64,000 bases of DNA from Anaerolineaceae bacterium (GTDB taxonomy: Bacteria > Chloroflexota > Anaerolineae > Anaerolineales > UBA11657): positions 186,001 through 250,000 of the forward strand of contig BGOS01000023.1 of the NCBI GenBank assembly GCA_003569365.1, given 5' to 3'. A model generated the notes under the pieces. The model had not been told where the DNA came from, did no database searches, and saw nothing but the letters and a program-made list of their open reading frames with translations. How positions within the stretch are numbered: position 1 is the stretch's first letter; every line of letters begins with the position of its first letter. Below, in pieces: positions 9,786 through 54,354 of this stretch. The position numbers were made by a program, and so were the translations under genes.

Positions 9786-9857
9786 TGGCGGGGGAGAGAG
9801 TCGAACTCTCGACCAAGGGCTTATGAGTCCCCTGCTCTGCCACTGAGCTACCCCGCC
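9786..9857 (-). tRNA. tRNA with CAT anticodon (elongator Met or lysidine-type Ile2)
   Basis: Reverse strand folds as a cloverleaf: acceptor GGCGGGG/CCCCGCC, D-stem GCTC/GAGC, anticodon loop CTCATAA, T-stem GAGAG/CTCTC with a TTCGACT loop, and discriminator A. CCA is not encoded. The anticodon stem does not have the initiator's three G-C pairs next to the loop, so this is not the initiator. The GGACTCATAA and CTTGGTCG wording resembles both elongator tRNA-Met and tRNA-Ile2 (CAU read as AUA after lysidine modification); I cannot decide between them by eye. Confidence 0.9.
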
Positions 9858-9924
9858 GAGCGACTGCGCAGGCCATAAACGACCAGTCAGTAGGGCGGGT
9901 TGCACACTACTGACTGATGCAAGG

Positions 9925-9997
9925 TAGCGGGGGCAGGATTCGAACCTGCGACCTTCGGGTTATGAGCCCGACGAGCTGACCACTGCTCCACCCCGCA
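9925..9997 (-). tRNA. Initiator tRNA-fMet (CAT)
   Basis: Reverse strand: acceptor (T)GCGGGG/CCCCGC(T) with an unpaired 1:72 position, anticodon arm TCGGG-CTCATAA-CCCGA with three consecutive G-C pairs above the loop, and T-arm GCAGG-TTCGAAT-CCTGC. The mismatched first acceptor pair and the GGG/CCC anticodon stem are the classical identity elements of initiator tRNA. It lies 67 nt upstream of the other CAT tRNA on the same strand, so both are probably cotranscribed. Confidence 0.93.
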
Positions 9998-45548: not shown

Positions 45549-46616
45549 ATGGTTGATGCGATGAGCATCAAGAGCGGGCTGAGCCCCGGCGCGGACAGCG
45601 AACCCAAAGTCGTCGTCCGCAATTTGTGGAAGGTGTTTGGCCCGCACGCGCAGCGCGTGCTTGCGGCACTTCAGTCTGGCGACTCCAAACAGCAGGCAGC
45701 GCTTGAGGGTGGCCACGTGGTCGCGGTGCGGGATGCAACATTTAGCGTGCAGCCGGGCGAGATCTTTGTGATCATGGGCCTCTCGGGAAGCGGCAAGTCG
45801 ACGCTGGTGCGCTGTATCTCGCGCCTGATTGAGCCGACCGGCGGTTACATTGCGGTTGGCGGCGCGGAAGTAACCGCGATGGACGCCGCGCAGCTGATGC
45901 AGCTGCGGCGCCACAGCTTGAGCATGGTCTTTCAGCATTTCGGGTTGTTCCCGCATCGCACGGTGCTGCAAAACGCAGCCTATGGTTTGGAGGTTCAGGG
46001 CGTGCCGCTGGCACAGCGCGAAGCGCGCGCGCGGGAAATGCTGGAGCTGGTGGGCCTGGCGGGCTGGGCAGACTCGCGGCCGCAGCGCTTGAGTGGCGGC
46101 ATGCAGCAGCGCGTGGGCCTTGCGCGCGCTCTGGCGGTTGATCCGGCGGTGCTGCTGTGCGATGAGCCTTTCAGTGCGCTCGATCCGCTCATCCGGCGCG
46201 ACATGCAGGATGAGCTGCTGCGCCTGCAGCAGATGATGCATAAAACTATTCTGTTCATTACGCATGATTTCCTTGAGGCACTAAAGCTGGGCGATCGCAT
46301 TGCGATTATGAAAGACGGCCGGCTGGTGCAGGTGGGCACACCAGAGGAGATTGTTTCCAATCCAGCGGGCGATTACGTGCGCGAATTTACGCGCGATGCG
46401 CCGCGCGCAAAGGTGATCACCGCGCGCAGCTTGGCGCAGGCGCGGGCCGGCGTGGAAGCGCCTGCGGTGGCGGCGAGCACACGGCTGGAGGAACTGCTGC
46501 AGCGCATGGCCGCGGGTGAAACGCAACTGTGCGTGCGGGAGGAAGACGGCACGCTGCTGGGTGTGGTGGATCAGGCTGCAGTGCTGCGCGCATTGGCGGG
46601 CGCTGCGCCGCGCTGA
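45549..46616 (+). CDS. proV: Glycine betaine/proline ABC transporter ATPase ProV
   Basis: This 355-residue energy subunit of an osmoprotectant importer has Walker A MGLSGSGKSTLVRCI, signature RLSGGMQQRVGLARAL, Walker B LLCDEPFSALDPLIRRDM and H-loop FITHDFLEALKLGDR. The insertion VLAALQSGDSKQQAALEGG before Walker A is typical of ProV/OpuAA. The C-terminal 80 residues contain one CBS-like half (TRLEELLQRMAAGETQLCVREEDGTLLGVV), shorter than the usual pair. Its stop overlaps the proW start (TGATG). Confidence 0.94.
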   Translation: MVDAMSIKSGLSPGADSEPKVVVRNLWKVFGPHAQRVLAALQSGDSKQQAALEGGHVVAVRDATFSVQPGEIFVIMGLSGSGKSTLVRCISRLIEPTGGYIAVGGAEVTAMDAAQLMQLRRHSLSMVFQHFGLFPHRTVLQNAAYGLEVQGVPLAQREARAREMLELVGLAGWADSRPQRLSGGMQQRVGLARALAVDPAVLLCDEPFSALDPLIRRDMQDELLRLQQMMHKTILFITHDFLEALKLGDRIAIMKDGRLVQVGTPEEIVSNPAGDYVREFTRDAPRAKVITARSLAQARAGVEAPAVAASTRLEELLQRMAAGETQLCVREEDGTLLGVVDQAAVLRALAGAAPR

Positions 46617-48559
46617 TGGCAGCAGTAAACGCCGGGCGCTGGTTGGCGCTTTGTGCAGGCGCCGCAGCCGCTGTGCTGCTCGGTATCCACTTTATCGGAT
46701 CCGGTTTCGGTCCGTTCCCCGTGGAATGGAATATTGGGTTGCGCCAGCCAATCGATGGCTTTCAGAGCTGGGTGATTGGCAATCGCAGTACCCATCCAAT
46801 ATTTCTTTTTGTTTTTGGCCCATTTTCTGCTTTTGTGGATTGGGGCCTGCGAGCCGCTGAAAATATTTTGTTGTGGCTGCCGTGGCCGGTTACTGTTTGG
46901 CTGTTTGCTGCGCTGGCATGGCAGGTTGCCAACTGGCGCATTACGGTGGTAACCGTGTGCGGGTTGCTTTTCATGGGCCTGATGGGGCTGTGGGAGCAAA
47001 GCATGCAGACGCTGGCCTTGATGGTGATCGCAGTGTCGCTGTCGCTGCTGGTGAGTGTGCCGCTTGGAATTTTGGCAGCGCGCCACGCGCACCTGCAGCA
47101 AATATTGCGCCCCATCTTGGATTTGATGCAAACCATGCCGGCGTTTGTGTACTTAATACCGGTGCTGTTGTTCTTTGGCGTGGCGCGCGTCCCGAGTGTG
47201 GTGGCCACAATGATCTACGCCATCCCGCCGGGCATTCGGCTGACGGAGCTGGGACTGCGGCAGGTTTCCCCGCCGGTTGTGGAGGCGGCGCGCGCGTTTG
47301 GGGCGACGCGCCGGCAATTGCTGTGGCATGTGCAGCTGCCGCTGGCGCTGCCGGCCATCATGGCGGGCGTGAACCAGACGATCATGATGGCGCTCAGCAT
47401 TGTGATTATTGCAGCGCTGATTGGCGCGGGCGGGCTGGGGCGCGAGGTACTCGTGGCGCTTCAGCGCCTGCAAGTGGGGCGCGCATTGGAGGCCGGGCTG
47501 GCGGTGGTGCTGCTGGCCATCATCATGGATCGCATTAGTGATGCGCTTGCCAACCGGCAATCCGAAATCTACGTGGCAGGTGCTAACACCGGGTATGCCG
47601 CAAAGCGGCCCGCGTGGCAGCGCGCTCGCATAGTGGTTCCGCTGGTGGCAGCCGTGCTGTTGCTTGCGGCGCTTGTGCTTGGCGTGCAAAGTTTTCCGGA
47701 GGCAGCGCGGTTGCCGCTATATCAACCGGTGGATGTTGCTGTGGGCTGGATGCGAGACAACCTCTACCGCATTGGTAACAGCGGTTGGGGCACCGGTCCG
47801 CTTAGCGACTTGATAACCATTCGCATGCTGGATCCGTTGCGAGCGCTGTTTGCCCATGGGCTGGCGTGGCCGGTGCAAGTTGCGCTTGCGGTTTGTGCGG
47901 GTGCTGCGCTCTCTGGTTTTCCGCTGGCGCTGCAAGCCGGCTTGGGGCTGTTTGCAATTGGCATGCTGGGGATGTGGGAGCTGGCGATGGACACTGTCAG
48001 CCAAGTGGTGGTTGCCGTTGCAATTTCAATTGTGCTGGCTGTGCCACTTGGCATTTGGGCGGCGCGCAGTGCCTGGGTGGATGCGCTGTTGCGGCCCATT
48101 CTGGATACGCTGCAGACCATTCCATCATTTGTGTTTCTGGTGCCGGTCATCATGCTCTTCAATGTGGGGCGCGTTCCGGGTGTGATTGCATCCGTCCTGT
48201 ACGCTTTGCCGCCTGGCATTCGCCTCACCACTTTGGGCTTGCGGCAGGTGAACGATGAGGTGCGCGAGGCAGCGCGTGCCTTTGGCTCCAGCAGCTGGCA
48301 GTTGCTAACCAAGGTGGAGCTGCCGCTGGCGCTGCCTTCCATTTTGCTTGGCATTAATCAAGTCATCATGATGGCGCTCGCGATGGTTGTGATCTCCGGG
48401 TTGGTGGGCGGCGCCGGGCTGGGGCTGGAGGCGGTGATTGGGCTGGCCAAAGGGCAAACCGGGCGTGGCATAGAAGCGGGCCTGGCGATTGCAATTCTGG
48501 CAATCATTCCGGACCGCATGCTGCACGCGGCAGCGCACCGGCTGCAACCGCCGGTGTGA
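46616..48559 (+). CDS. proW: Double-length glycine betaine permease ProW (two fused permease modules)
   Basis: The 647 residues comprise two homologous ProW-type transmembrane modules in one chain. Each has the EAA loop: VVEAARAFGATRRQLLWHVQLPLALPAIMAGVNQTIMMAL in the first and VREAARAFGSSSWQLLTKVELPLALPSILLGINQVIMMAL in the second. ProW normally has one module and works as a homodimer; here both halves are covalently joined. The start is the ATG at 46616, which overlaps proV. It imports glycine betaine or related osmolytes with ProV and ProX. Confidence 0.93.
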   Translation: MAAVNAGRWLALCAGAAAAVLLGIHFIGSGFGPFPVEWNIGLRQPIDGFQSWVIGNRSTHPIFLFVFGPFSAFVDWGLRAAENILLWLPWPVTVWLFAALAWQVANWRITVVTVCGLLFMGLMGLWEQSMQTLALMVIAVSLSLLVSVPLGILAARHAHLQQILRPILDLMQTMPAFVYLIPVLLFFGVARVPSVVATMIYAIPPGIRLTELGLRQVSPPVVEAARAFGATRRQLLWHVQLPLALPAIMAGVNQTIMMALSIVIIAALIGAGGLGREVLVALQRLQVGRALEAGLAVVLLAIIMDRISDALANRQSEIYVAGANTGYAAKRPAWQRARIVVPLVAAVLLLAALVLGVQSFPEAARLPLYQPVDVAVGWMRDNLYRIGNSGWGTGPLSDLITIRMLDPLRALFAHGLAWPVQVALAVCAGAALSGFPLALQAGLGLFAIGMLGMWELAMDTVSQVVVAVAISIVLAVPLGIWAARSAWVDALLRPILDTLQTIPSFVFLVPVIMLFNVGRVPGVIASVLYALPPGIRLTTLGLRQVNDEVREAARAFGSSSWQLLTKVELPLALPSILLGINQVIMMALAMVVISGLVGGAGLGLEAVIGLAKGQTGRGIEAGLAIAILAIIPDRMLHAAAHRLQPPV

Positions 48560-48582
48560 GGCAGCGGTCCGAAGCGCAAAAC

Positions 48583-48610
48583 AAAACGCCCCCGTAAGTG
48601 GGGGCGTTTT
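48583..48610. terminator. Bidirectional terminator between proW and proX
   Basis: AAAACGCCCCC-GTAAGT-GGGGGCGTTTT is a symmetric hairpin with A-tract/T-tract on both sides, serving the convergent proW and proX genes. Confidence 0.92.
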
Positions 48611-48644
48611 GTTTGAGTGCGCCAGGCATCCTCAAATTGTAGTG

Positions 48645-49592
48645 TTATGGCATCCAGGCTTTCCAGATGGATTCGTTTGCATCTACCCAGGCGCGCGCGG
48701 CCTCTGCCGGCTTCTTGCCATCGGTGTCGATTGCAGCCACCATCTTGATTTGCTCGTCCGTGCTGTAGTTCATATTGCTGAGCAGCTTGTAAGCATCCGG
48801 GGCGCTGGTCTTCAGGGTTGTGCTTGCAATCTTAAACAGCAGGTCAGTCGGATAATCGCAGTCCACCTTGCCTGCCGCCTTGTTTTCATCTGAATAACAT
48901 GCGGCATTGTTTTCCGGCAGGGTTACATTTGTCAGGTCGTATTTGGCAAACGCTGAGTGCGGCTTGTAAAAATAAATCAGCACTGGCTCCTTGCGGCTGA
49001 AGGCGCTGTCTACTGCCGCCATGATGGCTGCTTCCGATCCCGCATACACCACCTTCAGGTTGAGCCCGAGATTTGTGATGATCTGCTCGTCATACTGCAC
49101 CCAGCTTGGGTCACCGCCCAGAAACTGGCCCATCTCGCCGGTTTCAGCGGTCTTGAATAGCGCAGCCGTTGCCGGATCCTTGAAGCCTTCCCAAGTGGCC
49201 AGTTCGGGATGATCGGCCAGCAAGTAAGTGGGAATGTACCAGCCAATCTTGCCAATCACACCCAGCTCACCCAATTTCTCAACCTTCTTTTGGTCATCAA
49301 TGAACTGCTTCACGTTGTCGGCGTGGCCAGAAGGCCACACTTCCAAGCTGGCGGAAAGATCTCCGGTTGCCAGCGCTGCCCACTGCGCGTTCTCGTCAAT
49401 CGTCACAATCTCCACCTTGTAGCCAAGTTTGTCTTCAAGCAGAATCTTGGCGACGTTGACATTGGCGGCTGAAGCCGACCATGGATTCTCCGCCAATTTT
49501 ATGATTGGCTTCGGCGCCGGCGCACACGCTGCCAGTGTGCTGGCGAACAGCGAAACTAAGACTATTGATGCAAGCTTGCGATTTGTTTTCAT
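48645..49592 (-). CDS. proX: Glycine betaine substrate-binding lipoprotein ProX
   Basis: The product is 315 residues. Signal peptide and lipobox LAAC (about residues 19-22) give a membrane-anchored lipoprotein. The binding domain shows LAENPWSASAANVNVAKILLEDKLGY, LEVWPSGHADNVKQF and GKIGWYIPTYLL, wording of OpuAC-type betaine-binding proteins in which Trp residues form the aromatic box. It is convergent to proVW instead of following them, so it is a separate transcript. Confidence 0.93.
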   Translation of the reverse strand: MKTNRKLASIVLVSLFASTLAACAPAPKPIIKLAENPWSASAANVNVAKILLEDKLGYKVEIVTIDENAQWAALATGDLSASLEVWPSGHADNVKQFIDDQKKVEKLGELGVIGKIGWYIPTYLLADHPELATWEGFKDPATAALFKTAETGEMGQFLGGDPSWVQYDEQIITNLGLNLKVVYAGSEAAIMAAVDSAFSRKEPVLIYFYKPHSAFAKYDLTNVTLPENNAACYSDENKAAGKVDCDYPTDLLFKIASTTLKTSAPDAYKLLSNMNYSTDEQIKMVAAIDTDGKKPAEAARAWVDANESIWKAWMP

Positions 49593-49695: not shown

Positions 49696-51537
49696 TCATT
49701 CCACCGTGACGCTTTTTGCCAGATTCCGCGGCTGGTCCACATCGCAGCCGCGCAGCAGCGCCACGTGGTACGCCAGCAGCTGCAGTGGAATTGCGGTGAG
49801 CACCGGGCTTAGCAGCCACGGAACCGGGGGGATCCAGAGCACATGGTCCGCCAGCTGCGCCATGCGTTCGTCGCCATCAGTGGCAACCGCAACCACCATC
49901 CCGCCGCGCGCCCGCACCTGCTCCACTTGGCTGAGCATCTTCTCGTGCCATTGGTCGCGCACGGCAATGCAGATCACGGGCAGGCCAGGCTCCACCAGCG
50001 CGATTGGCCCGTGCTTCATCTCGCCGGCTGGGTAGCCCTCGGCGTGGATGTAGGAAATTTCCTTGAGCTTCAACGCGCCTTCATAGGCGATGGGCATGTT
50101 GATGCCGCGCCCCAGGTACATGCAGTGGCTGGTGTGTTGCAGTGCCTGCGCAACCGCCTGCACTTGCGGTTCGCGGTCCAGCACGCTGCCGGCCAGATCC
50201 GGCAGGCGCGCCAGATCCTGCGCGAGTGCCAGGCGCTGCGCTGCGGGCAGCGTGCCGCGCAAGTCGCCGAGCAGCATTGCCAGCATATATAAATCCACCA
50301 GCGGTGTGGTGAACGCCTTGGTGGAGGCGACTCCAATCTCCGGGCCGGACTGCATGGTGATGTGGCCGTGCGCCACGCGCATGGCTTGGCTGCCGATGGC
50401 GTTGACGATGCTCCAGACTACTGCGCCGCGCGTTGCAGCTTCCGCAATGGCTGCCAGCGTGTCGGCAGTTTCCCCGCTCTGGCTTATGGCGAGCACAATT
50501 GTGTCGCGGTCAACAATCGGGTCGGTGTAGCGAAACTCGGACGCAATGCTGACTTCCACGGGCAGGCGCGCCAGCGATTCGATCATCAACTTGCCCACCA
50601 TGCCCGCATGCGCAGCTGTGCCGCAGCCCGTAATGACCATGCGCTTGGCGCGCCGCGCCAGTTCCGGCGTGAGGTTCAGGTCTGGCAGCTGCACGCGCCC
50701 GCTGGTGAAGTCCACGCGGCCAATGATGGTGTTGGTGAGCGCGTGCACTTGCTCATGAATTTCCTTTTGCATGAAGTGCGCGTAGTTGCCCTTCTCGGCA
50801 GCGGCAGCGTCATAAGTAATCGCGTGCACTGGCGCCTGAATAATTGCACCGGCAGAATCGGAGACAGTGCAACTGCTGCGCTCGAGCACCGCCATGCAGC
50901 CGGGCTCGAGGAAGATCATTTGGCGCGTGTGCTCCAAAATTGCCGGAATGTCGGACGCCAAGAACATTTCGTCCTGCCCGAGGCCGAGCACAATGCCGCC
51001 GGAGTTGCCCATGCGCACCGCCACAATTTTGTCCGGCTCATCCGCGCACATTGCCACCAATGCGTTGGCTCCGCGCAGCTGCGCCATGGTACTGCGCATG
51101 GCAGCTGCCAGCGCCACGCCGGCTTCCAGCTGCGCTTCTATCAGGTGTACCACCACCTCGGAGTCTGTCTCGGATTGGAAGTGAGCGCCCTGCGCCTGCA
51201 GCGCAGTGCGCAGCTCCAGAAAGTTCTCCACAATGCCGTTGTGCACCAGCACCACGCGCTGGCGCGGGCCAAGGTGCGGATGCGCATTGCGCTGCGTGGG
51301 TTCGCCATGCGTTGCCCAGCGCGTATGCCCGATGCCGGTGTTGCCCTGCAGCGGCTGCGCGCGCACAAGCGTTTGCAATCGCTCCAGTTTGCCGGCTTCG
51401 CGGCGCACAGTGATTGTGCCGTTTTGCAGCACGGCCAAGCCCGCGGAGTCATAACCGCGGTACTCCAGCCGGTGCAGACCGTTCAAGATGATGGGAGTGG
51501 CAGCTTGGCCGCCGATGTATCCGACTATTCCACACAT
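49696..51537 (-). CDS. glmS: Glucosamine-6-phosphate synthase GlmS
   Basis: This 613-residue glutamine-fructose-6-phosphate transaminase makes glucosamine-6-P for wall and amino-sugar synthesis. It starts with the ATG at 51537, with GGAGGG 8 nt before, giving MCGIVGYIGGQ. Cys2 is the glutaminase nucleophile. The N-domain reads IGHTRWATHGEPTQRNAHPH. Two SIS domains follow (ITGCGTAAHAGMVGKLMIE and SEFRY; ISQSGETADTLAAI; LGRGINMPIAYEGALKLKEISYIHAEGYPAGEMKHGPIAL), ending LAKSVTVE. It is controlled by the ribozyme upstream. Confidence 0.96.
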   Translation of the reverse strand: MCGIVGYIGGQAATPIILNGLHRLEYRGYDSAGLAVLQNGTITVRREAGKLERLQTLVRAQPLQGNTGIGHTRWATHGEPTQRNAHPHLGPRQRVVLVHNGIVENFLELRTALQAQGAHFQSETDSEVVVHLIEAQLEAGVALAAAMRSTMAQLRGANALVAMCADEPDKIVAVRMGNSGGIVLGLGQDEMFLASDIPAILEHTRQMIFLEPGCMAVLERSSCTVSDSAGAIIQAPVHAITYDAAAAEKGNYAHFMQKEIHEQVHALTNTIIGRVDFTSGRVQLPDLNLTPELARRAKRMVITGCGTAAHAGMVGKLMIESLARLPVEVSIASEFRYTDPIVDRDTIVLAISQSGETADTLAAIAEAATRGAVVWSIVNAIGSQAMRVAHGHITMQSGPEIGVASTKAFTTPLVDLYMLAMLLGDLRGTLPAAQRLALAQDLARLPDLAGSVLDREPQVQAVAQALQHTSHCMYLGRGINMPIAYEGALKLKEISYIHAEGYPAGEMKHGPIALVEPGLPVICIAVRDQWHEKMLSQVEQVRARGGMVVAVATDGDERMAQLADHVLWIPPVPWLLSPVLTAIPLQLLAYHVALLRGCDVDQPRNLAKSVTVE

Positions 51538-51624
51538 GCGATGTCCCTCCGGGCAATTCTTGCGCGCAGGCAATGCCAACTGCTCAAAGCTGCTGTTGTT
51601 TGCGCGGCAAAGCTTGGTGCCAGA

Positions 51625-51824
51625 GCTGCGGTGGTTGTGCCGGCGCTTGCGCGCTGGTTTTGGGCCGCAGCCATAATTTTGAGGGAAGGGGGCGGGTGCT
51701 GGCGCACCCGGAAGGCATCCGCTGATCTTTCGATTTTCCGCAGCTTGCGCTGCGTTAGCCCCGCTGCGCAGCGGGGAACCTTCAACCTCGTCACCCCGCA
51801 ACAATTTGGCAGGGCCGTGCGCTT
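51625..51824 (-). ncRNA. glmS ribozyme: glmS ribozyme/riboswitch with a two-hairpin insertion
   Basis: On the minus strand, 88 nt before glmS, the segment shows the glmS ribozyme core. The cleavage site lies before AGCGC (A at 51823). A CCCTGC/GCGGGG stem leads into TGACGAGG (51786-51793). GAAGG pairs with CCTTC around AATCGAAAGATC and GCGGATGCC. A P3 hairpin CGGGTG/CACCCG follows (51693-51710). A P4 GCTGCGG/CCGCAGC (51665-51671 with 51625-51631) has the AAAACC and GGCACAACC internal elements. GlcN6P would trigger self-cleavage and lower glmS expression. Between the GAAGG arm and ATCGA sits an extra approximately 40 nt with two hairpins (51739-51776), where known members have only about three bases. 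Confidence 0.88.
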
Positions 51825-51924
51825 ACCTTTCCCGGGTAAATTTAGTGGGTTATGGATGGTTGGGTGCGGCAGTGTTCTCCGGTTGCTGCTGAGAACGCAG
51901 CGCTTGGCCGTTGTTATCGGTGAA

Positions 51925-51930
51925 ATTATA
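51925..51930 (-). promoter_or_regulatory. -10 box of the glmS transcript
   Basis: Perfect reverse-strand TATAAT, about 100 nt upstream of the ribozyme cleavage site, in the gap after the EamA gene. No clear -35 at 17 nt. Confidence 0.55.
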
Positions 51931-51971
51931 TCAGGGCTTTAGCCGGGCAAAGCGGTGAGGCTGCGGCCGGC

Positions 51972-52916
51972 TTAGAGCATGGGCGCCCGCTTGCGGAGCA
52001 CGCGCAGGCGGGTGCGGTTCAGGCGCAATAGCGCCAGCATGGCGCTCAGCAGTATCAAGCTCCCCCCAAGCCACTGCAGCGCCTGCACCCGCTCCCCCAA
52101 AAACAACAGCGACCAAACGATGGTGAGCAGGATGTCGACAGGCGCGAGCAGCGCGGTCTCTGCGCTGCCGATGCGCGCGATGCCGGCAAACAGCAGCAGG
52201 CGGTGCACCACCACGCCTAACACCGCCAGCCAAACCACGGCCAGCCAGCCTTCTGTGGCGGGCGGCTGCCAGTGCGCGCCTTGCAGCAGCCAAAACAAAG
52301 TGAAATAAACCGTCATGCTGGCCACAACATAGAACGCGCTGGTGTTCGTGTCGATTGCCGGCTGCAAGGTGGGCAGCACAACAATGAAGAGCGAGTAGGT
52401 CATGGTCGAGAATCCGATCAGCAACACACCCAGCCAGTCTGCTGTCTGGCCGAGGCCGGTAAGAAAATAGACGCCGCCGATACCCATCGCCAGCCGGATC
52501 ACGTCCAGCACAGTGAAGGGCTCGCCGCGCAAGCGCAGCCACACCAGTACCAGCAGTGGATAGAACGAACTGAGCATGACGGCCAGCGATGCATCCAGCC
52601 GTTGCAGCGCGTAAAAGAAGGCGAGCGTGTCGAGGCCGGCCAGCAGGCCGGCGAAGGCGCACTTCTGCAGGCCGCGCCGGTTGATGCGCAGCAGTGCCGG
52701 TGCGCGCAGCGCCAGCACTGCACCCAGCAGCGCGGTAGCCAGCCAAAAGCGCAGCATTAGCAGCAGCGTTGGGTCCATGCCGCTGCGCAATACGCCGCGC
52801 GCCACAACCGGGCTCGCGCTCAGCACCACCGATGCCAGCAGCACAAGCGCCCAGCCAGCCCACGGGCGGGCAGCCGGCGCAGCAAGCGGGGCTGCAGTTG
52901 CGTCTTGGGTTGTCAT
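51972..52916 (-). CDS. EamA/DMT-family membrane transporter
   Basis: The product is 314 residues from the ATG at 52916 (MTTQDATAAPLAAPAARP). Ten hydrophobic helices fall in two EamA halves (WALVLLASVVLSASPVVARGVL through VMLSSFYPLLVLVWLRLRGEPFT; then LIGFSTMTYSLFIVVLPTL through LLAPVDILLTIVWSLLFLGERVQALQWLGGSLIL). Substrates of this family include amino acids, nucleotide sugars and metabolites; none can be inferred here. It lies 25 nt after the DUF512 gene in a minus-strand run and precedes the glmS promoter. Confidence 0.88.
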   Translation of the reverse strand: MTTQDATAAPLAAPAARPWAGWALVLLASVVLSASPVVARGVLRSGMDPTLLLMLRFWLATALLGAVLALRAPALLRINRRGLQKCAFAGLLAGLDTLAFFYALQRLDASLAVMLSSFYPLLVLVWLRLRGEPFTVLDVIRLAMGIGGVYFLTGLGQTADWLGVLLIGFSTMTYSLFIVVLPTLQPAIDTNTSAFYVVASMTVYFTLFWLLQGAHWQPPATEGWLAVVWLAVLGVVVHRLLLFAGIARIGSAETALLAPVDILLTIVWSLLFLGERVQALQWLGGSLILLSAMLALLRLNRTRLRVLRKRAPML

Positions 52917-52941
52917 GCTGTGCGCCGCGCGGCCGGCCGGG

Positions 52942-54354
52942 TTAGAGGTACTTCTCAACTCCCCAACCGCCGGGATGAGCAATGTCCAGCAGCGGTGCCG
53001 GGTCGCCGGGCCGAAAGGTGAGCGGGTTGCAGCCGGCCAGTGTGTCGATCACATCGCCCATCAGGTCCGCAAGGTGAACCGGCACGCCCAGCTGATTGGC
53101 AATGTCCTGCGGCGACAGGTCATCAAGCGTGATGCCGCGCGGATGGTCGAACATGACGCGCGGCAGCACAACACCGCCGCGCAAATCCTGCGGGCGCAAC
53201 TGGTCGATTGCGTCCGCGCCAAGCAGCAAGCCGCTAACGGTAATGGTGGCGCCCATGCGGGTGTTGATGATGGGAGCTACGCACACTTGCGTTCCGGCGG
53301 CGGCGTTGAGTTTGTCTGTGATGGTTTGAAGCGTTGGCGCAAACAGTGTGCCAGTGGCAAGCGTGAGGCGCTGGCCGGCGAGCTGGCTGCGCAACGCCGG
53401 CAGCTCACGCTGCTCGCGCCGCCACGCGTTCAAAAAGCGGCGCACCTGCCCGAGTCCATTTTCGTAAAGGTCCAGATCGGCAATCGCACTTTGCGCAGGC
53501 ACGCGCCGACTGGCCACCAGATACCACTCGTCGGTGGCATGCACAAACGGCGCACCCAGCGTTTTGCGAAAGGCGCGCTGCCAGCCGTGCACGGCGCGCA
53601 GCACGTTCTGCGACTCCGCCAGTGTGTTCGGGCGCAGCTTGTATTTGTGCTGGCGCGTCAGGCCCACCGGCACCACCGACACGGATTGCACGGCCGGGTG
53701 CAGCGTTGCGAGGTCGCGCACGGAGCGCTCCAGCTGCGCGCCGTCATTGAGGCCCGGCGTTATCACCAGCTGCGTGTGCATGCGAATGCCCCAGCGCGCA
53801 AGTTGGCGCAGCTGCGCCATTACATCCGGTGCGGTCTCGTTGCGCAGGCACGCGCGGCGCACGCGCGTATCAGTGGCGTGCACAGACACGTACAAAGGCG
53901 AGAGGCGCTGGCGGCGGATGCGCACCCAGTCTTGCGGGCTGAGGTTGGTGAGCGTTACAAAGTGCCCGTGCAAAAAGGAGTAGCGGTAATCGTCATCCTT
54001 GATGTAGAGCGCGCGGCGCAGGCGGTTGGGCGCCTGCAGCACAAAACAAAACGGGCACAGGTTATTGCAGCGCCGGATGTCAATGTCGAAGGTGGTTTGC
54101 GTGAACTGCAGGCCGAGAGGCTGGCCCTCGGCGCGCCGGCCGCCCAGCTTAAGCTCGTGGCCGGCCCGCAGCACGGTCAGGTTCAGGCGCGGGCTGGCGC
54201 CATAGAACAACACATCGACCACATCTTGCACCGCATGGCCATTCACTGCTAGCAGCGCATCCCCGCTGCGCACGCCGGCTTGCAGCGCAAACGAGCCGGG
54301 CTCCACCGCAGCAACGTATCCCGGAGTGCGTTGGCTGGCGGCGGCAGCGCTCAC
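52942..54354 (-). CDS. DUF512 protein: PDZ-like domain plus radical-SAM-type Fe-S domain
   Basis: The product is 470 residues from a GTG at 54354 that overlaps the upstream stop (GTGA). Residues about 10-65 are PDZ-like (GYVAAVEPGSFALQAGVRSGDALLAVNGH). Near residues 92-99, CNNLCPFC gives a CxxxCxxC cluster motif, with FSFLHGHFVTLTNL-type wording after it. The C-terminal DUF512 half contains LVSGLLLGADAID-like residues. The family is conserved in Chloroflexota, Firmicutes and cyanobacteria, often next to der (EngA GTPase) or plsY; its reaction is not established. Here it is coupled to the Cmk-PlsC fusion. Confidence 0.88.
   Translation of the reverse strand: MSAAAASQRTPGYVAAVEPGSFALQAGVRSGDALLAVNGHAVQDVVDVLFYGASPRLNLTVLRAGHELKLGGRRAEGQPLGLQFTQTTFDIDIRRCNNLCPFCFVLQAPNRLRRALYIKDDDYRYSFLHGHFVTLTNLSPQDWVRIRRQRLSPLYVSVHATDTRVRRACLRNETAPDVMAQLRQLARWGIRMHTQLVITPGLNDGAQLERSVRDLATLHPAVQSVSVVPVGLTRQHKYKLRPNTLAESQNVLRAVHGWQRAFRKTLGAPFVHATDEWYLVASRRVPAQSAIADLDLYENGLGQVRRFLNAWRREQRELPALRSQLAGQRLTLATGTLFAPTLQTITDKLNAAAGTQVCVAPIINTRMGATITVSGLLLGADAIDQLRPQDLRGGVVLPRVMFDHPRGITLDDLSPQDIANQLGVPVHLADLMGDVIDTLAGCNPLTFRPGDPAPLLDIAHPGGWGVEKYL

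Follow-up and report, generated by a model that had tools for sequence, protein, structure and literature searches.

Does the leader of glmS in this member of the Chloroflexota (class Anaerolineae) hold a working glmS ribozyme, and if so, did the lineage inherit the RNA or receive it by transfer? The glmS ribozyme family is best known from Gram-positives, and an earlier note, made from the letters of the 64,000-nucleotide stretch analysed here (the window), had placed a copy at 51625-51824 and proposed that it either extends the range of the family or points to transfer.

The ribozyme in the glmS leader

The gene (49696-51537, minus strand) encodes a 613-aa glucosamine-6-phosphate synthase, identified by its Pfam SIS and GATase domains and by a match to PDB 4amv (E 8.7e-160), and a genome search found one full-length copy in the host. 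Its Shine-Dalgarno sequence, GGAGG, lies at 51546-51550 on the same strand. Elsewhere in the window, 45549-49592 holds an apparent glycine-betaine/proline ABC transporter set with an ATPase, a 676-aa permease resembling two fused permease units and, on the opposite strand, an OpuAC substrate-binding protein, and a tandem pair of tRNA genes (RF00005), both with a CAU anticodon by eye, was seen at 9786-9997 (minus strand).

On the minus strand of the window, 51838-51615 is a full-length glmS ribozyme, running from helix P0 through the end of P4, in the 5' leader of glmS and 77 nt from the ATG at 51537. These limits combine the matches of two covariance models. The Rfam model RF00234 matched 51834-51615 over its full length (model positions 1-167) with 33.2 bits (E 3.4e-6, window scan), and in a search of the whole 2.63-Mb genome the window element was its sole match (E 4.7e-6). 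This score falls 3.8 bits under the RF00234 gathering score of 37 bits, so that the element goes unlisted at the Rfam default, and a scan of the window at gathering threshold reported no glmS ribozyme. The second model, R1, is a subtype model built from 14 relatives in glnA leaders (none before glmS) from other genomes of the class, and it is independent of the window sequence, which was absent from its training set. R1 matched 51838-51669 with 95.1 bits (E 1.1e-27), and found nothing beyond the window element in the host genome. The full-length match and the R1 match therefore put the element far beyond chance. From the sequence, we are all but certain that the RNA ahead of glmS is an authentic, self-cleaving glmS ribozyme.

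These matches and the identity of GlmS bear out the central call of the earlier note, a glmS ribozyme preceding glmS, and when the minus strand was read, AGCGC, TGACGAGG, AATCGA, GCGGATGCC, P3 and P4 were found in order on the glmS strand, as it had said. It had the location right and the extent too short, the real element taking in P0 and the end of P4, and the Rfam search that it proposed gave a full-length match at a score below the cut-off.

In the RF00234 register, with the residue numbering of PMC7125110, the predicted cleavage site lies between A-1 (51823) and G1 (51822), and is followed by the 5' strand of P2.2 (C2 G3 C4 A5 C6 G7, 51816-51821) and by the P1 hairpin (51794-51814, pairing 51814-51809 with 51799-51794). 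The core motif GACGAGG (51786-51792) includes CGA (51790-51788), the first strand of P2.1, whose A helps, with the G after it, to position the cleavage site (PMC7125110, PMC11602151); the second strand, UCG (51733-51731), lies within AAAATCGA (51730-51737) on the side of the ligand pocket. The 3' strand of P2.2, UCAGCGG (residues 51-57), occupies 51719-51725, and the double pseudoknot is present, with CGA and UCG forming P2.1, and C2-G56, G3-C55 and C4-G54 forming P2.2. Also present, in the PMC7125110/PMC11602151 register, are the A/GCG cleavage site (the slash marks the predicted cut) and the positioning residues (AG of GACGAG, C of UCGA, and GCGGA), and AGCGC occurs in 52 of 52 glmS-associated copies with a readable 5' strand in the alignment A2, described below. 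Helices P1, P2, P3 and P4 are all found in the element: P2 joins GAAGG (51779-51783) to CCTTC (51711-51715), P3 is the hairpin CGGGTGC-GCCA-GCACCCG (51693-51710), and P4 (51625-51671), read from the RF00234 alignment and the sequence, pairs 51671-51665 with 51631-51625 around an inner helix, P4a (51657-51640), that carries a GCAA cap.

The helices were further examined in A2, an alignment of 101 relatives of the window element. Across its nested structure, 95.5% of cells were paired and the covariation score was 0.813, whereas shuffling gave 0.257 (sd 0.007) and sliding the partners gave no more than 0.175; the pair counts are biased towards the structure to which A2 was itself fitted. Six of six pairs covaried in P1, P2 was paired in 100% of cells over the 101 sequences, and P3 (helix 6 of A2) was paired in 95.8% of cells.

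Peripheral architecture and inheritance

The departures of the element from the Rfam consensus are three: an additional covarying helix, P0; two hairpins inserted in P2; and residues 5 and 53, both of them A where the consensus has a C5-G53 pair. The 5' strand of P0, GGGAAAGG (51826-51833), ends two bases 5' of A-1 and pairs, with one bulged A, with CCTTCCC (51683-51689), which sits after P3. Besides covarying among the 101 relatives, P0 was evaluated by an alignment-free test, which is free of the structure-fitting bias of A2; the longest helix between these two stretches averaged 7.35 bp in 94 relatives, whereas 200 rounds in which partners were exchanged between sequences never gave more than 6.67. 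A comparable GC-rich helix was absent from the 7 Bacillota and 8 other-class Chloroflexota ribozymes compared. The insert consists of two lineage-specific hairpins, P2a (51759-51776; helix 4 of A2, 98.8% of cells paired) and P2b (51739-51754; helix 5, 98.4%), with changes on both sides in five of five and four of four pairs, respectively, or 9 of the 9 counted. Residues 5 and 53 change together, being A/A in 51, C/G in 25 and otherwise in 3 of 79 glmS copies, with the window copy among the A/A type. A single change at either residue costs about 1000-fold in vitro (PMC7125110).

The A5/A53 state, and an RF00234 score below the Rfam cut-off, would suit an inactive, decayed relic that still folds and cuts poorly. 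However, the core motifs are intact, compensatory changes maintain the helices, the copy L029 from the same genus retains the whole core and P0, and A/A is the majority state among the glmS copies of the lineage; we consider decay very unlikely. The element is a true member of a known ribozyme family, common in hosts of this group, and we count it a variant because its peripheral architecture differs.

That a Firmicutes glmS ribozyme and its gene entered the lineage by horizontal transfer could be argued from the Gram-positive background of the family and from the 91-120 bits scored by the Bacillota loci examined, but the RNA was found throughout the class and the phylum. RF00234 gave matches in 40 of the 61 relatives at order level and in 182 of the 396 class genomes, of which 116 exceed the cut-off; in a phylum-wide sample it matched 100 of 300 genomes and scored as high as 102.7 bits beyond the class. 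R1 matched 239 of the 396 class genomes at E <= 1e-4. The nearest GlmS proteins are all from Chloroflexota, chiefly Anaerolineae, and in a maximum-likelihood tree the window GlmS groups within a Chloroflexota clade supported at 100/100, the Bacillota forming a separate clade. Relatives also share the lineage-specific P0 and P2 insert, and the Bacillota ribozymes examined are without P0. Transfer, whose probability we put at practically nil, was rejected on the distribution and the GlmS tree, and because of both we conclude that the ribozyme is a normal inherited trait of the lineage, with no sign of transfer, so that neither the extended range nor the transfer suggested in the earlier note was upheld. 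Many probable glmS ribozymes of Chloroflexota fall below the curated Rfam cut-off.

Relatives ahead of nitrogen-assimilation genes

The glmS ribozyme has been regarded as serving glmS almost exclusively. Among 128 RF00234 matches retrieved, 107 precede glmS, and further ones lie ahead of a gene for a type-I glutamine synthetase (15 matches) or of a glutamate-synthase-like gene (E 6e-102 to Pfam Glu_synthase). The 101 classified R1 matches are followed by glmS (53), glnA directly (18), an ada or eamA gene (24), a glutamate-synthase-like gene (4), a MOSC gene (1) or, at L182, an FAD-oxidase-like gene (1). The ada/eamA loci with enough downstream sequence are ada-eamA-glnA or eamA-glnA operons, and an orphan class for these genes was dropped because longer stretches show glnA at the end of the operon (10 of 10 extra loci). 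At L136:1501-1755 a glmS ribozyme is followed by transposase-like open frames and no glmS, perhaps through an insertion between ribozyme and gene.

At L249:3003-3279 (minus strand), L247:798-1067, L267:1104-1302, L009:1497-1667 and about 40 further Anaerolineae loci, a glmS-ribozyme-like RNA leads glnA or ada-eamA-glnA operons, mostly with an A/GCGGCUG core. Many of these variants have a 6S RNA gene (RF00013) a short way upstream, an arrangement seen in several genomes (L230:1248-1424; L235:946-1121; L224:1840-2016, minus strand; L220:1311-1486). Ribozymes with the canonical core stand before the FMN-dependent glutamate-synthase-like gene (L180:928-1089; L013:1551-1720 and L246:2952-3125, both minus strand), and L129, considered as a further copy of this kind, is doubtful and is without the GACGAGG part. 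In the host, the R1 genome search found no glnA-type copy, and the distant glutamine synthetase of the host has no such leader by eye and no Rfam match at gathering threshold.

Most leaders of glnA operons have the 5' strand A/GCGGCUG, as against A/GCGC in glmS copies, and residue 26 is often C, U or A. The altered strand fits a P2.2 whose bulge is shifted from residue 6 to residue 4 (C5-G54, U6-A53), an arrangement deduced elsewhere from double-mutant rescue (PMC7125110). RF00234 detects some glnA-type copies, with up to 47.7 bits, whereas copies leading ada/eamA score only about 21-22 bits with it or go unmatched at E <= 1. The glnA-operon variants are probably still ribozymes, since they retain the residues responsible for positioning the cleavage site. 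The idea that they are catalytically dead, which equated the catalytic guanine with the variable G that opens GACGAGG, was dropped because this G is residue 26, in a triple with 7-52 (PMC7125110, PMC11602151), and the active-site residues downstream are kept. Residue 26 is A for G (AACGAGG) in two glmS-associated ribozymes as well (L133:1501-1674, minus strand, and L257:978-1144).

In the relatives, the same RNA precedes glutamate synthase and, in bulge-shifted form, the (ada-eamA-)glnA operon, forming an apparent GS/GOGAT regulon. We lean slightly towards a small Anaerolineae regulon that links the synthesis of amino sugars with nitrogen assimilation: the P0 subtype would control glmS and, in relatives, glutamate synthase, and the bulge-shifted, residue-26-relaxed variant would control the glnA operon, either as a ribozyme for glucosamine-6-phosphate (GlcN6P) or in response to a different ligand. 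Should the copies ahead of glnA and glutamate synthase prove active, GS/GOGAT would be under the control of a metabolite ribozyme, and the naturally shifted bulge of P2.2 would serve as a test of the alternative structure from the double mutants of PMC7125110. Our search of open-access papers found none that connects the glmS ribozyme with glnA, with glutamate synthase or with a P0 helix; these features may already have been described elsewhere, for example in the survey of McCown, Roth and Breaker (2011).

Since this RNA has relatives ahead of other genes, its specificity could have changed within the lineage, and the window element might then be a glmS-fold riboswitch that responds to a different ligand from GlcN6P or works without self-cleavage. 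The window copy itself, however, precedes glmS, and its pocket and cleavage motifs (AGCGC, GACGAGG, AATCGA and GCGGATGCC) are canonical, and we regard such a change as extremely unlikely, keeping to a GlcN6P-responsive ribozyme that cuts.

Predicted control of glmS and comparison with known systems

GlcN6P is the cofactor of glmS ribozyme self-cleavage, after which the product is degraded; in B. subtilis, RNase J degrades the 5'-OH cleavage product. The host has one ortholog of the RNase J gene (TIGR00649, 581 bits vs a 400-bit cut-off), a result that speaks to gene presence only. A consensus promoter scan upstream of glmS found no full two-hexamer sigma-70 site, and TGATATAAT (51925-51933, minus strand), read by eye, is a probable extended -10 element of the glmS transcript, which would place the transcript start about 95 nt ahead of the cut. 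An EamA-family transporter gene (51975-52982, minus strand) lies directly upstream of the ribozyme on the same strand, and eamA genes, as beside the window ribozyme, are also present in the glnA operons of relatives.

On the sequence evidence, we are confident that the element is a working glmS ribozyme giving feedback control of the only GlmS of the cell. Transcription would start near 51920, and the leader would fold into a double pseudoknot of P2, P2.1 and P2.2, propped by P1, P3 and P4. Plentiful GlcN6P would bind the preformed pocket and join the chemistry as cofactor, the RNA would cut itself between A51823 and G51822, and the cut glmS message with its 5'-OH end would be degraded, probably by the genome-encoded RNase J, so that GlmS synthesis would fall. 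P0 would keep the leader of about 95 nt on the ribozyme, and may allow faster folding or later release of the leader. A subtype with its leader clamped beside the cut offers a natural test of the effect of the cleaved leader on the fate of the mRNA. As a ribozyme the window element is ordinary, and its interest lies in its architecture and in the apparent GS/GOGAT regulon.

The RF00234 examples from B. subtilis, B. anthracis and T. tengcongensis have the same core motifs, P1, P2, P2.1, P2.2 and P3 as the window element, and likewise share P4 with a GNRA-type cap, the position in the glmS leader and the predicted cut A/GCGC, whereas P0 on the 5' side of the cut, the two-hairpin insert of P2, A5/A53 and the score of 33.2 bits set the window element apart. 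Ribozymes from other classes of Chloroflexota (L162-L171) also precede glmS and match RF00234 in full with 83-103 bits but, unlike the window element, are without the P0 pairing and the long P2 insert. The leader RNA of Anaerolineae glnA operons, in contrast, shares P0, P1, P2 with its two-hairpin insert, P2.1, P3 and the GCGGA core, and R1, which was built from such leaders, recognises the window element. It differs in its 5' strand, mostly A/GCG(G or A)CUG, with the bulge at residue 4 rather than residue 6, in frequently having C, U or A at residue 26, and in preceding glnA or ada-eamA-glnA, with the ada-eamA type poorly detected by RF00234.
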